Origin: Beijerinckiaceae bacterium
Lineage (GTDB): Bacteria; Pseudomonadota; Alphaproteobacteria; Rhizobiales; Beijerinckiaceae
Assembly (NCBI GenBank): GCA_947478455.1
Contig: CANJWR010000002.1
Coordinates: forward strand, 1 to 64,000
DNA length: 64,000 nucleotides
Reading direction: 5' to 3'
Shown piece after piece: positions 6,542 through 60,751 of this stretch (position 1 is the first letter of the stretch; every line of letters begins with the position of its first letter). The notes under the pieces were generated by a model that made no database searches, was not told where the DNA came from, and was given only the letters and a program-made list of their open reading frames with translations. Made by a program: the position numbers and the translations under genes.

Positions 6542-6555
6542 TTGATCTTGATCAA
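6542..6555. promoter_or_regulatory. FNR/FixK-type palindrome
   Basis: TTGATCTTGATCAA exactly matches TTGAT-N4-ATCAA, ~90 bp upstream of the ompW start. Confidence 0.7.
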
Positions 6556-44318: not shown

Positions 44319-46085
44319 CTAGGTGTTCGCCAGTTCATCGACAAGGAACGACCGCACATCTTCGGCCGGAACGCCTTTGGCGATGAAGCTCTGCCCGATG
44401 CCACGCGCCAGAATGAAGGTCAGCGCGCCGCGCTGGACCTTCTTGTCCTGGAACATGGCTTCGAGAATCCGGTCGGCGTCGACGTCGAGCCCGGCAATGT
44501 CGCGAATGCGCGTCGGCAGGCCGACTTCGCGCAGATGCGCCTCGACGCGGGCGGCGTCGGCCGCACTCGCATGGCCGAGCTTCGACGAAAAACGGAACGC
44601 GCAGGCCATGCCGATGGCGACGCCTTCGCCATGCACCAGACGCGTCGTATCGAAATCGTTCAACGCCTCAAGCGCATGTCCGAATGTATGGCCGAGGTTG
44701 AGAAGCGCGCGATCGCCCTGCTCGGTTTCGTCGCGCGCCACGACGGCGGCCTTGGCCCGGCAGGAGACCCAGATGGCTTCGGCCAGTTCAGGACCGAAAG
44801 CGAAAATCGAGCGCCAGTTGTTTTCGAGCCAGCCGAAGAAGGCCGCATCGTCGATCAGCCCGTATTTTGCGACCTCCGCATAGCCGGCTCGGAATTCGCG
44901 CGGGTCGAGCGTTTCCAGCACGCCCGTATCGGCCAGCACCAGCGAGGGCTGATGGAAGGCGCCGACCAGATTCTTGCCGTGCGGCGAGTTGATCGCCGTC
45001 TTGCCGCCGACCGACGAATCCACCTGCGCCAGAACGCTGGTTGGAATCTGTACGAAGCGCATGCCGCGCCGGATGCACGACGCCACAAAGCCGGCCAGAT
45101 CGCCGACGACGCCGCCCCCGAACGCGACGATCAGATCGCCACGCTCCATGCGGGCTTCGATCACCGCATCGCAAAGACGGGCGAAAACCTCGTAGGATTT
45201 CGACGCCTCGCCGGGCTCGATCACAAAATGCGAATGGCGGATCTGGGCTTCCGACAGGCTCTGCTCCAGCCTCGGCAGATGCTGCGCGGCCAGATTGCGG
45301 TCGGTGATAATGAAACATGCCGCGCGCGAATCGAGATTACGGATCGCCTCCCCGGCATTTTCGATCAGATCGCGCCCGATGTGGATTTCGTAACGCCTTT
45401 CGGCCAGTTCCACCGGCACGATGGTCTGCGGCGATTCTGCGTGGCGGCTGGCCAGCGAATGGTCGAGCGCATCCAGAATCGCGTCAATCACCGCCTCATG
45501 GGGCCCGTCGCGGGAAATCACCGTCAGGTCGGCCAGCGCATAAACCGGATAACGCTCCGCCATCAGGCGCTTCAGCGTATCTTCGGGATCGGGCGTGTTG
45601 AGCATGGGGCGGTTGTTACGCTTGCGCACGCGGCGCAGCAGCACATCCGCATCGGCCTTGAGCCAGATAGACACGCCAGTTTCGGCAATTCTTTCGCGGG
45701 TGGCTTTTGTCATGTAAGCCCCGCCGCCCGTCGCCAGCACCCGCTGGCGTTCGCCCAGCAGGCGGGCGATGACCCGGCGCTCGCCGTCGCGGAAATGCGG
45801 CTCGCCATGACGGGAGAAAATCTCCGGGATCGTCAGACCCGCAGCCGCCTCGATCTCGTGATCGGCGTCGACAAAATCGAGCCCGAGCCGCACGGCCAGA
45901 CGCTTGCCGACAGAGGTTTTGCCCGCCCCCATCATGCCGACCAGCACGATCGAGCGGCCGGCGAGCTTGCGCACCACCGCGGCCACCTGCGCGTCGCGCC
46001 GCGCGCCGGCTTCCACCGGCGTCTCCGCCGCCGGGGCGGCGCCTGCCCCGACCCCGCTTTCGATTGTGTCGACCGTATCGTTCAT
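44319..46085 (-). CDS. aroKB: bifunctional shikimate kinase / 3-dehydroquinate synthase fusion
   Basis: Single ORF: VLVGMMGAGKTSVGKRLAVRLGLDFVDADHEIE (AroK), then FGGGVVGDLAGFVASCIRRGMRFVQIPTSVLAQVDSSVGGKTAIN (AroB). Confidence 0.95.
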   Translation of the reverse strand: MNDTVDTIESGVGAGAAPAAETPVEAGARRDAQVAAVVRKLAGRSIVLVGMMGAGKTSVGKRLAVRLGLDFVDADHEIEAAAGLTIPEIFSRHGEPHFRDGERRVIARLLGERQRVLATGGGAYMTKATRERIAETGVSIWLKADADVLLRRVRKRNNRPMLNTPDPEDTLKRLMAERYPVYALADLTVISRDGPHEAVIDAILDALDHSLASRHAESPQTIVPVELAERRYEIHIGRDLIENAGEAIRNLDSRAACFIITDRNLAAQHLPRLEQSLSEAQIRHSHFVIEPGEASKSYEVFARLCDAVIEARMERGDLIVAFGGGVVGDLAGFVASCIRRGMRFVQIPTSVLAQVDSSVGGKTAINSPHGKNLVGAFHQPSLVLADTGVLETLDPREFRAGYAEVAKYGLIDDAAFFGWLENNWRSIFAFGPELAEAIWVSCRAKAAVVARDETEQGDRALLNLGHTFGHALEALNDFDTTRLVHGEGVAIGMACAFRFSSKLGHASAADAARVEAHLREVGLPTRIRDIAGLDVDADRILEAMFQDKKVQRGALTFILARGIGQSFIAKGVPAEDVRSFLVDELANT

Positions 46086-46158
46086 GCCCCCTGATAACAC
46101 GGGCCGCGCGGGAATTTAACCGGCCCGTGACGCCAGAGTCCCTGCCTGTTGCAAACCT

Positions 46159-46360: not shown

Positions 46361-47311
46361 ATGGCCCGCGCGCCGAAACCTGCCGCGCGCCTGATCGGCG
46401 ATTTCCTCGACATGATGGCTGCCGAACGCGGCGCCGCGAAAAACACGCTCGACGCCTACCGGCGGGATCTTTCGGACTATCTGGCCTTTCTGGCCGCCCG
46501 CAAGACCAGCCCCGCAGAGGCCGATTCGTCCACCGTTCAGGCCTTTCTGGTCGATCTGGAAGAGCGCGGCATGAAGGGCTCGTCGGCGGCACGCAAACTG
46601 TCCAGCGTCCGGCAATTCCACAAGTTTCTTTATTCGGACGGGATCTCGACCGGCGATCCGACCAATGTGATCGAGGGGCCGCGCAAGGGCAGACCCCTGC
46701 CGAAGGTGCTGGGGGTCGAGGAAGTCGACCGGCTGCTCACGATGGCGCACGAGGGAATCGCGGACGCCGCCCGACCGTTCGGCGAGCGGCTGCGGGCCGC
46801 CCGCACAGCCTGCCTGCTGGAAGTGCTTTACGCGACAGGGCTGCGCGTCTCTGAACTCGTGGCCCTTCCCCGCTCGGCGCAGCATACGCGCGATCCACTA
46901 TTGATGATTCGCGGCAAGGGCGGACGCGAGAGGCTGGTGCCGCTGTCCGACCCTTCCCGCAGGGCCATCGTGGTCTATCGGGAGCTACTCGAATCCCGCT
47001 ATCCTGATCTGGCGCAGGGGCCGTGGCTGTTTCCTGCCGACAGCGAAAGCGGCCATCTGACCCGGCAGGCCTTTGCGCGCGACTTGAAACTGGCGGCGGC
47101 GCTCGCGGGCATTTCATCCCATCGCATCAGCCCGCATGTGTTGCGCCATGCGTTCGCCAGCCACCTGCTACAGAACGGCGCCGATCTGCGTGTCGTGCAG
47201 GAACTGCTGGGACATGCGGATATTTCGACAACGCAGATTTATACGCATGTGCTCGACGAGCGCCTGAAGGCGATGGTGCGCGATCTGCATCCGATGGGAG
47301 ATGCGGACTAA
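46361..47311 (+). CDS. xerD: tyrosine recombinase XerD
   Basis: LLEVLYATGLRVSELV, HVLRHAFASHLLQNGADLRVVQELLGHADISTTQIYTHV. Confidence 0.95.
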   Translation: MARAPKPAARLIGDFLDMMAAERGAAKNTLDAYRRDLSDYLAFLAARKTSPAEADSSTVQAFLVDLEERGMKGSSAARKLSSVRQFHKFLYSDGISTGDPTNVIEGPRKGRPLPKVLGVEEVDRLLTMAHEGIADAARPFGERLRAARTACLLEVLYATGLRVSELVALPRSAQHTRDPLLMIRGKGGRERLVPLSDPSRRAIVVYRELLESRYPDLAQGPWLFPADSESGHLTRQAFARDLKLAAALAGISSHRISPHVLRHAFASHLLQNGADLRVVQELLGHADISTTQIYTHVLDERLKAMVRDLHPMGDAD

Positions 47312-47347
47312 GCCGCCTTGCGGTCAAACGCCGCAGCCGCGCTTATG

Positions 47348-47361
47348 TTGATTCAAGTCAA
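47348..47361. promoter_or_regulatory. FixK/FNR-type box
   Basis: TTGATTCAAGTCAA = TTGA-N6-TCAA, 56 bp upstream of a 32-aa ORF. Confidence 0.6.
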
Positions 47362-47416
47362 TGAGGGCAGTGCTTCCCGTCAGGTTCAATACCTGCATCA
47401 AAAACGGGGGAAGCTC

Positions 47417-47515
47417 ATGGGTACTTTCGAATTTCTGTTTATCGCCACCGCCATCGTGGCTTTTGCGGCTTTTGCGGCGACGGTCGTGTGGGTCGATCGC
47501 CGCACCAACGGCTGA
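47417..47515 (+). CDS. candidate 32-aa single-TM small protein
   Basis: MGTFEFLFIATAIVAFAAFAATVVWVDRRTNG*; purine-rich GGGGGAAG upstream, then terminator at 47543. Confidence 0.65.
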   Translation: MGTFEFLFIATAIVAFAAFAATVVWVDRRTNG

Positions 47516-47542
47516 GACCTTTTCATAGAATCATTCTGGCCG

Positions 47543-47573
47543 ACCGGTCCGCTTTCGCGGACCGGTCTTGTTG
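47543..47573. terminator. intrinsic terminator between convergent genes
   Basis: GACCGGTCCGC-TTTC-GCGGACCGGTC then TTGTTGTTG. Confidence 0.85.
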
Positions 47574-47576
47574 TTG

Positions 47577-48530
47577 TTACTTCTTGAACTTCGCGAACTG
47601 CTGCTCGACCTTGTCGAGGGTCTGCATGGCGCGCAGGGCGTCTTCGACCGACGAGTTCGGCTGGCGGCCTTCCTGAATGGCCTTGATGAATTCGCGATCC
47701 TGATTTTCGAAACCGTTCTGCGAGACGTCACAGGCCGAAGTGTCGACCTTCTCGCCCTTGGCGGTGTGCAGATCGTCATAGAAGGCGATCCACGTGCCCT
47801 TGTCGCAGATATAGCGATAGGGCGAGCCGATCGGGCCGTCGTTGTTGAACGAGGTCGAGAGCGTGCAGATCGCGCCGTTCTTCGCCTTCATGATGATGGA
47901 GAGGTCCATGGCGATGCCGAGGTTCGGATCGTGCGGGCCCTCGACGCCGTAGATCTGCTCCGGCACGTCGCCGGTCTGGTAGATGAACATATCGACCGTG
48001 TGGCAAGCATGGTGCCACAGAAGATGATCTACCCACGAACGCGGCGCGCCGAGCGCATTGATGTTGGTGCGGCGGAAGAAATAGGTATGCGCCTGAATCT
48101 GCTGCAGCGCGATTTCCTTCTTCTGGATGCGCTGGTGAATCCACTGGTGGCCGGGGTTGAAGCGGCGCACATGACCGGCCATGGCGACGAGGCCGGTTTC
48201 CTTCTGGAGTTTCACCAGATGCTCGGCGTCCTTCAGCGAATCCGTCATTGGGATTTCGATGAGGACATGCTTGCCGGCCTTGAGGCAGGCTTCCGCCTGA
48301 TCGTGGTGCATCTGTGTCGGCGAGGTGAGGATGACGGCGTCCACATCCTTGCGGGTGATGGCGGCGTTGAAATCCGTGGTGTGGAAAGGTACGCCATATT
48401 CCTTGGCGGTCTTCTCGGTGCCTTCGGCGGTGCGGCTCTGGATGGCCGTGACCTCCATGCCGGGGATGTTCCGGAGGGCCTTGAGGTGCGAGACGCCCAT
48501 GGCGCCGTTGCCGACTACGCAAAATCTCAT
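47577..48530 (-). CDS. ligC: 4-carboxy-2-hydroxymuconate-6-semialdehyde dehydrogenase (LigC-like, Gfo/Idh/MocA)
   Basis: VDAVILTSPTQMHHDQAEACLKAGKHVLIEIPM, HVRRFNPGHQWIH, YFFRRTNINALGAPRSWVDHLLWHHACHTVDMF; divergent from ligAB. Confidence 0.88.
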   Translation of the reverse strand: MRFCVVGNGAMGVSHLKALRNIPGMEVTAIQSRTAEGTEKTAKEYGVPFHTTDFNAAITRKDVDAVILTSPTQMHHDQAEACLKAGKHVLIEIPMTDSLKDAEHLVKLQKETGLVAMAGHVRRFNPGHQWIHQRIQKKEIALQQIQAHTYFFRRTNINALGAPRSWVDHLLWHHACHTVDMFIYQTGDVPEQIYGVEGPHDPNLGIAMDLSIIMKAKNGAICTLSTSFNNDGPIGSPYRYICDKGTWIAFYDDLHTAKGEKVDTSACDVSQNGFENQDREFIKAIQEGRQPNSSVEDALRAMQTLDKVEQQFAKFKK

Positions 48531-60737: not shown

Positions 60738-60751
60738 TTGATCCGGATCAA
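60738..60751. promoter_or_regulatory. FNR/FixK-type palindrome in divergent promoter
   Basis: TTGATCCGGATCAA exactly matches TTGAT-N4-ATCAA, between ligA2 and ligI starts. Confidence 0.7.

Follow-up and report, generated by a model that had tools for sequence, protein, structure and literature searches.

The question raised by this locus is which gene is served by an FNR/FixK box lying between xerD and a LigC-like oxidoreductase gene, and what the product of that gene does. The box stands in the window, by which we mean the whole stretch of 64,000 nucleotides analysed from a Beijerinckiaceae bacterium.

A small gene between xerD and a LigC-like gene

The xerD gene lies on the same strand as the box and stops before it, and the LigC-like gene is convergent, so the box serves neither, and both were rejected as its target. 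Between them is a 32-codon open reading frame (ORF) with the translation MGTFEFLFIATAIVAFAAFAATVVWVDRRTNG. The preliminary description had read a box, a TTCAAT hexamer, a purine-rich stretch, the ORF and a terminator here, and direct reading of the sequence bore out the positions of all five (Table 1). A longer version starting at TTG 47318 (65 aa) was rejected, since it puts the box within the ORF and is not conserved. The downstream hairpin has 11 pairs, nine of them G-C; one hairpin was found in the 2-kb region versus 1.6 expected in shuffles, so that the match alone is weak. Judged by its position, the hairpin would end a monocistronic unit ahead of the convergent gene.

Table 1. Features of the small gene and its neighbours in the window
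Feature	Coordinates	Strand	Remarks
xerD	46361-47311	+	Upstream of box
FNR/FixK box TTGATTCAAGTCAA	47348-47361	+	Sequence read directly; spacing kept in relatives
-10-like hexamer TTCAAT	47385-47390	+	Sequence read directly
Purine-rich ribosome-binding site GGGGGAAG	47406-47413	+	Sequence read directly
32-codon ORF, single transmembrane helix	47417-47515	+	ATG 47417, TGA 47513-47515
Terminator-like hairpin GACCGGTCCGCTTTCGCGGACCGGTC-TTGTTGTTGT, T-rich tail	47542-47567	+	
LigC-like oxidoreductase	47577-48530	-	Downstream, convergent

Two observations concern the surrounding DNA. The segment 47577-50049 holds the LigC-like oxidoreductase gene, ligA in divergent orientation and a LigB-like ORF (protocatechuate 4,5-dioxygenase), and in some relatives (loci L098, L105 and L152) the small gene adjoins a LigB-like gene rather than xerD. 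On the minus strand, a 593-aa ORF at 44319-46100 seems, from its translation read by eye, to fuse shikimate kinase with 3-dehydroquinate synthase.

Distribution and coding evidence

When 60 relatives were searched with the plain protein sequence, eight matches came up, mostly weak, and in all eight TTGA-N6-TCAA lay 69-123 bp ahead of the stretch that matched. With a profile built from those nine sequences, further members were found in the genus, family, order, class and phylum sample; in the family search, hits below about 20 bits were mostly noise and nearly all boxless. The small-protein family is present in many alphaproteobacterial families. Outside the Alphaproteobacteria, no member was seen among the matches listed for the phylum sample, which is also rich in Alphaproteobacteria. 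Within the genus the distribution is patchy, with about 21 of 38 genomes carrying the gene. A DNA pattern combining the box with ETLYL returned candidate records from Xanthobacteraceae, Hyphomicrobiaceae, Rhodospirillales and Ferrovibrio, amid chance matches in AT-rich genomes. With any of three family members or a made-up consensus as query, tblastn against plasmids gave no match, for which the low-complexity filter is possibly responsible, and no copy was found in the fix region of S. meliloti pSymA. The family matched nothing in Pfam, NCBIfam or PDB, and a search of the open literature found no description of it.

Some genomes hold more than one copy. L036 (G022) and L038 (G024) are probable second copies of the SLAASLAYAS or SLAASIAYAS type and are boxless, the same genomes also having a boxed copy; the large genome G369 has three copies (L209, L215 and L216), each with its own box.

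The preliminary description had named conservation of peptide and box in relatives, together with dN/dS, as the check on its reading. Both peptide and box recur across the class, and in each of the 26 pairs compared, all at 62% DNA identity or more, the synonymous difference (pS) exceeded the non-synonymous one (pN). The pS and pN values were 0.75 and 0.24 for the window against G004, 0.55 and 0.29 for the window against G035, and 0.63 and 0.08 for G013 against G020. Going by these sequence comparisons, the ORF is under purifying selection. A conserved RNA in place of a protein was rejected, because pS is much higher than pN and conservation lies at the protein level; 47417-47515 is almost certainly a real protein-coding gene.

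Promoter geometry and the candidate regulator

The window box matches the TTGA-N6-TCAA consensus. The stricter pattern TTGAYN4RTCAA occurs at 28 sites in the whole 4.6-Mb genome, this box being one of them, versus two for the reversed control pattern, indicating that a box of such quality is seldom due to chance. Among 53 homologues chosen on protein profile score alone (at least 25 bits), 45 had a perfect TTGA-N6-TCAA upstream. When 61 loci were fetched with flanks, 53 had the box at -135 to -50, against 0.23 expected in all from the flanks (0.0037 per locus), and the perfect box was absent from the other eight; as the box played some part beside the score in choosing these loci, 45/53 is the less biased figure. 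Two of the boxless homologues, L071 and L084, have different palindromes in about the same position (TTAATCCAGGTTAA and CTAACCCAGGTTAG), which a related CRP/FNR regulator perhaps recognises.

In the box-anchored loci, the median distance from box start to start codon was 71 nt (IQR 69-77) and the leader was about 20-25 nt; most homologues have a purine-rich stretch of the GGAGG or GGGGA type directly 5ʹ of the ATG. Aligned on the box and measured from its centre, the 53 loci showed A in 58% at +30.5 and T in 74% at +34.5. If that centre is placed at -41.5, the two signals fall on -11 and -7, inside a -10 hexamer, which is the class II FNR arrangement. The class II geometry that had been proposed for the window thus holds across the boxed loci, and in the window itself (box centre 47354.5) TTCAAT lies one base further than the family position, so that the fit is within 1 bp.

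A candidate regulator is encoded in the same genome. The product of a gene on contig C96 matches the FnrL model with an E value of 4e-51, below the equivalog cut-off, and has an N-terminal cysteine cluster of the CX2CX7C type; the gene is preceded by its own box, and its product is predicted to be an FnrN/FnrL-like regulator. Boxes also precede the fixNOQP-GHIS (cbb3) operon on contig C53 and genes for a DUF2189 membrane protein, a cation efflux transporter and flbT; in R. capsulatus, too, flbT carries an FnrL site (PMC4634722). On motif, spacing and regulator gene together, FNR/FixK control of the small gene is very probable. The part of the preliminary reading that described a small membrane protein under class II control is therefore strongly supported by the conserved peptide, box, spacing and -10 signal, by purifying selection and by the regulator gene.

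Further boxes were seen apart from this gene. Two more perfect ones lie in the window at 6542-6555 and 60738-60751, the latter 61 bp ahead of an amidohydrolase-family ORF (PF04909), and one elsewhere in the window genome (G000:C25:32366, locus L226) lies 90 bp ahead of an ORF matching a caspase-like (EACC1-associated) domain.

A helix with one conserved face

Family members are mostly 29-46 residues long. The best conserved positions are L9, F16 (92% of the family), F19 (97%), L23 and V/A12, together with an acidic residue at 5 and aromatic residues at 8 and 25. Conservation follows a period of 100 degrees over residues 7-26 (permutation p=0.0016), pointing to a helix with one interacting face. 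Basic residues are nearly all C-terminal, beyond the helix, from which an N-out/C-in orientation is predicted. One conserved face is what docking on a partner would be expected to leave, and the peptide probably docks on a protein partner; homodimerisation could also explain the one-sided conservation. A membrane-acting peptide without a fixed partner would be another reading, lowering membrane potential or slowing metabolism at low oxygen in the way reported for E. coli YohP (PMC12719787). The similar size, single helix, predicted N-out/C-in orientation and stress-type control agree with such an action, but the one-sided conservation and the two near-invariant phenylalanines fit specific packing better, and we regard it as very unlikely.

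Relation to the terminal oxidases

The preliminary description had suggested an accessory to a terminal oxidase. Across the class, ccoN was found in 21 of 29 carriers versus 108 of 261 non-carriers (p=0.0026), an association that genome size may partly underlie; within the genus there was no association (17/21 carriers versus 13/17 non-carriers). For cydA there was none across the class (14/29 versus 109/261), and a cytochrome bd link was rejected on these counts; the window genome itself has no cydA. Six carriers lack both ccoN and cydA, and three of these (G532, G670 and G759) have a perfect box. As carriers without either oxidase exist, the peptide is an obligate subunit of neither cbb3 nor bd, and the obligate cbb3 form of the idea was rejected. 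The small protein would thus belong to the low-oxygen programme, judging from gene content and promoter. What stays of the oxidase suggestion is weakly supported, with the class-wide cbb3 association in its favour, and the lack of association within the genus or with bd and the boxed carriers devoid of both oxidases against it.

A subunit dedicated to cbb3, in an accessory or assembly role and perhaps a distant FixQ/CcoQ-like helix encoded apart from fixNOQP, would account for the class-wide association and for the position of the gene in G515, G022 and G426, where the cbb3 genes (fixNOP-GI) are about 10 kb away or less. FixQ/CcoQ (PF05545), a small cbb3 subunit, is likewise a single helix under FixK/FNR control, and hhalign of the family against it gave a score of 19.0 (probability 25%), whereas none of 60 column-shuffled controls scored above 16.9, a weak resemblance over the helix; FixS and CydX gave no score. 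The family differs from FixQ, however, in having neither its Trp and Pro motif nor its acidic tail, in staying unmatched by the PF05545 model, which matched true FixQ controls, and in being encoded by a stand-alone gene after xerD, outside fixNOQP. Moreover, the window genome already has its own FixQ (in the C53 operon) and FixS, and near-complete carriers such as G024 have no ccoN. Together with the missing association within the genus and the possible effect of genome size, this makes a dedicated cbb3 subunit unlikely.

FixS/CcoS (PF03597) is likewise small, single-helix and FixK-controlled, and the family matches neither its model nor its profile. CydX (PF08173), an accessory subunit of cytochrome bd-I, and CydP from Burkholderiales (PMC9104464) are also single-helix proteins of similar size in low-oxygen respiration, but both are encoded in a cyd operon, whereas the small gene is not part of a cydAB operon. 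CydX has no sequence similarity to the family, which the PF08173 (CydX/YbgT) model left unmatched while matching the E. coli CydX control; CydP is set beside the family by description alone.

Gene neighbourhood and proposed role

At most loci, the small gene is solo and its neighbours are unrelated, so that the partner is not readable from context. Exceptions are G692 and G752, where it lies with fixLJ and fixK, G781 and G515, with fixLJ and an FNR-like gene, and G349, G511 and G022, with FNR-like genes. Oxygen genes neighbour it in roughly six independent lineages, where a rough estimate would predict far fewer than one. A membrane protein acting like MgrB, in feedback on a sensor kinase for oxygen or redox state such as FixL, would suit the loci adjoining fixLJ and fixK or fnr (G692, G752, G781 and G515) and those with fnr-like genes alongside (G349 and G511), but most loci have no nearby sensor and many FixL proteins are soluble; we consider it distinctly unlikely.

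We favour, with somewhat better than even confidence, a monocistronic FNR/FixK-activated gene whose product would serve as accessory helix of a membrane complex or sensor that operates at low oxygen. On a drop in oxygen, the FnrN/FnrL-like regulator would bind the box, contact RNA polymerase and turn the gene on. The peptide would insert N-out/C-in, and its conserved stripe (E5, L9, V/A12, F16, F19, A20 and L23) would pack on a larger integral membrane protein used at low oxygen, which it may stabilise or tune by analogy with CydX, CydP, MgrB or AcrZ. The likeliest partner class would be a membrane complex with a respiratory or redox function, or else a sensor in the membrane that belongs to this regulon, but neither the cbb3 nor the bd oxidase could strictly be the partner; that the partner acts in respiration or redox is about evenly balanced. 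More tentatively, the peptide might be an ancient component, occurring class-wide, that acts as subunit or regulator in some alphaproteobacterial membrane complex different from the cbb3 and bd oxidases, with promoter and helix forming a portable low-oxygen module at many genomic sites; such a gene would have been overlooked, being too short for annotation and standing solo with its own FNR promoter.

Place among known systems and meaning

Small membrane proteins of the YohP, MgrB, AcrZ and MgtS type in E. coli also have fewer than about 50 residues and one helix, and several are stress-induced (PMC12719787); their regulator differs, and the likeness to the family is by description, not by profile. 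The alphaproteobacterial FnrN/FixK regulons have box and regulator type in common with the small gene. The cco operon, fnr itself and flbT are among the shared targets, and the regulon sections consulted contain no description of the small gene; 34 FnrL ChIP peaks in R. capsulatus were without a responding annotated neighbour, so that there is room for unannotated targets (PMC4999443, PMC4634722).

Small oxygen-linked membrane proteins are already known in CydX, CydP and FixQ, and what is new is this family within that kind. The recurrence of promoter and peptide across the Alphaproteobacteria suggests an overlooked, evolutionarily constrained part of coping with low oxygen. The FNR/FixK regulons of this class are regarded as largely mapped, and a protein of about 35 residues that has no family model appears to be a recurrent member of them. 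The conserved box-plus-helix signature provides a simple search handle for any genome. If the family is real, some orphan FNR binding sites could be explained, and it would be a testable new component of how a class with nitrogen-fixing symbionts, methylotrophs and phototrophs among its members lives at low oxygen.
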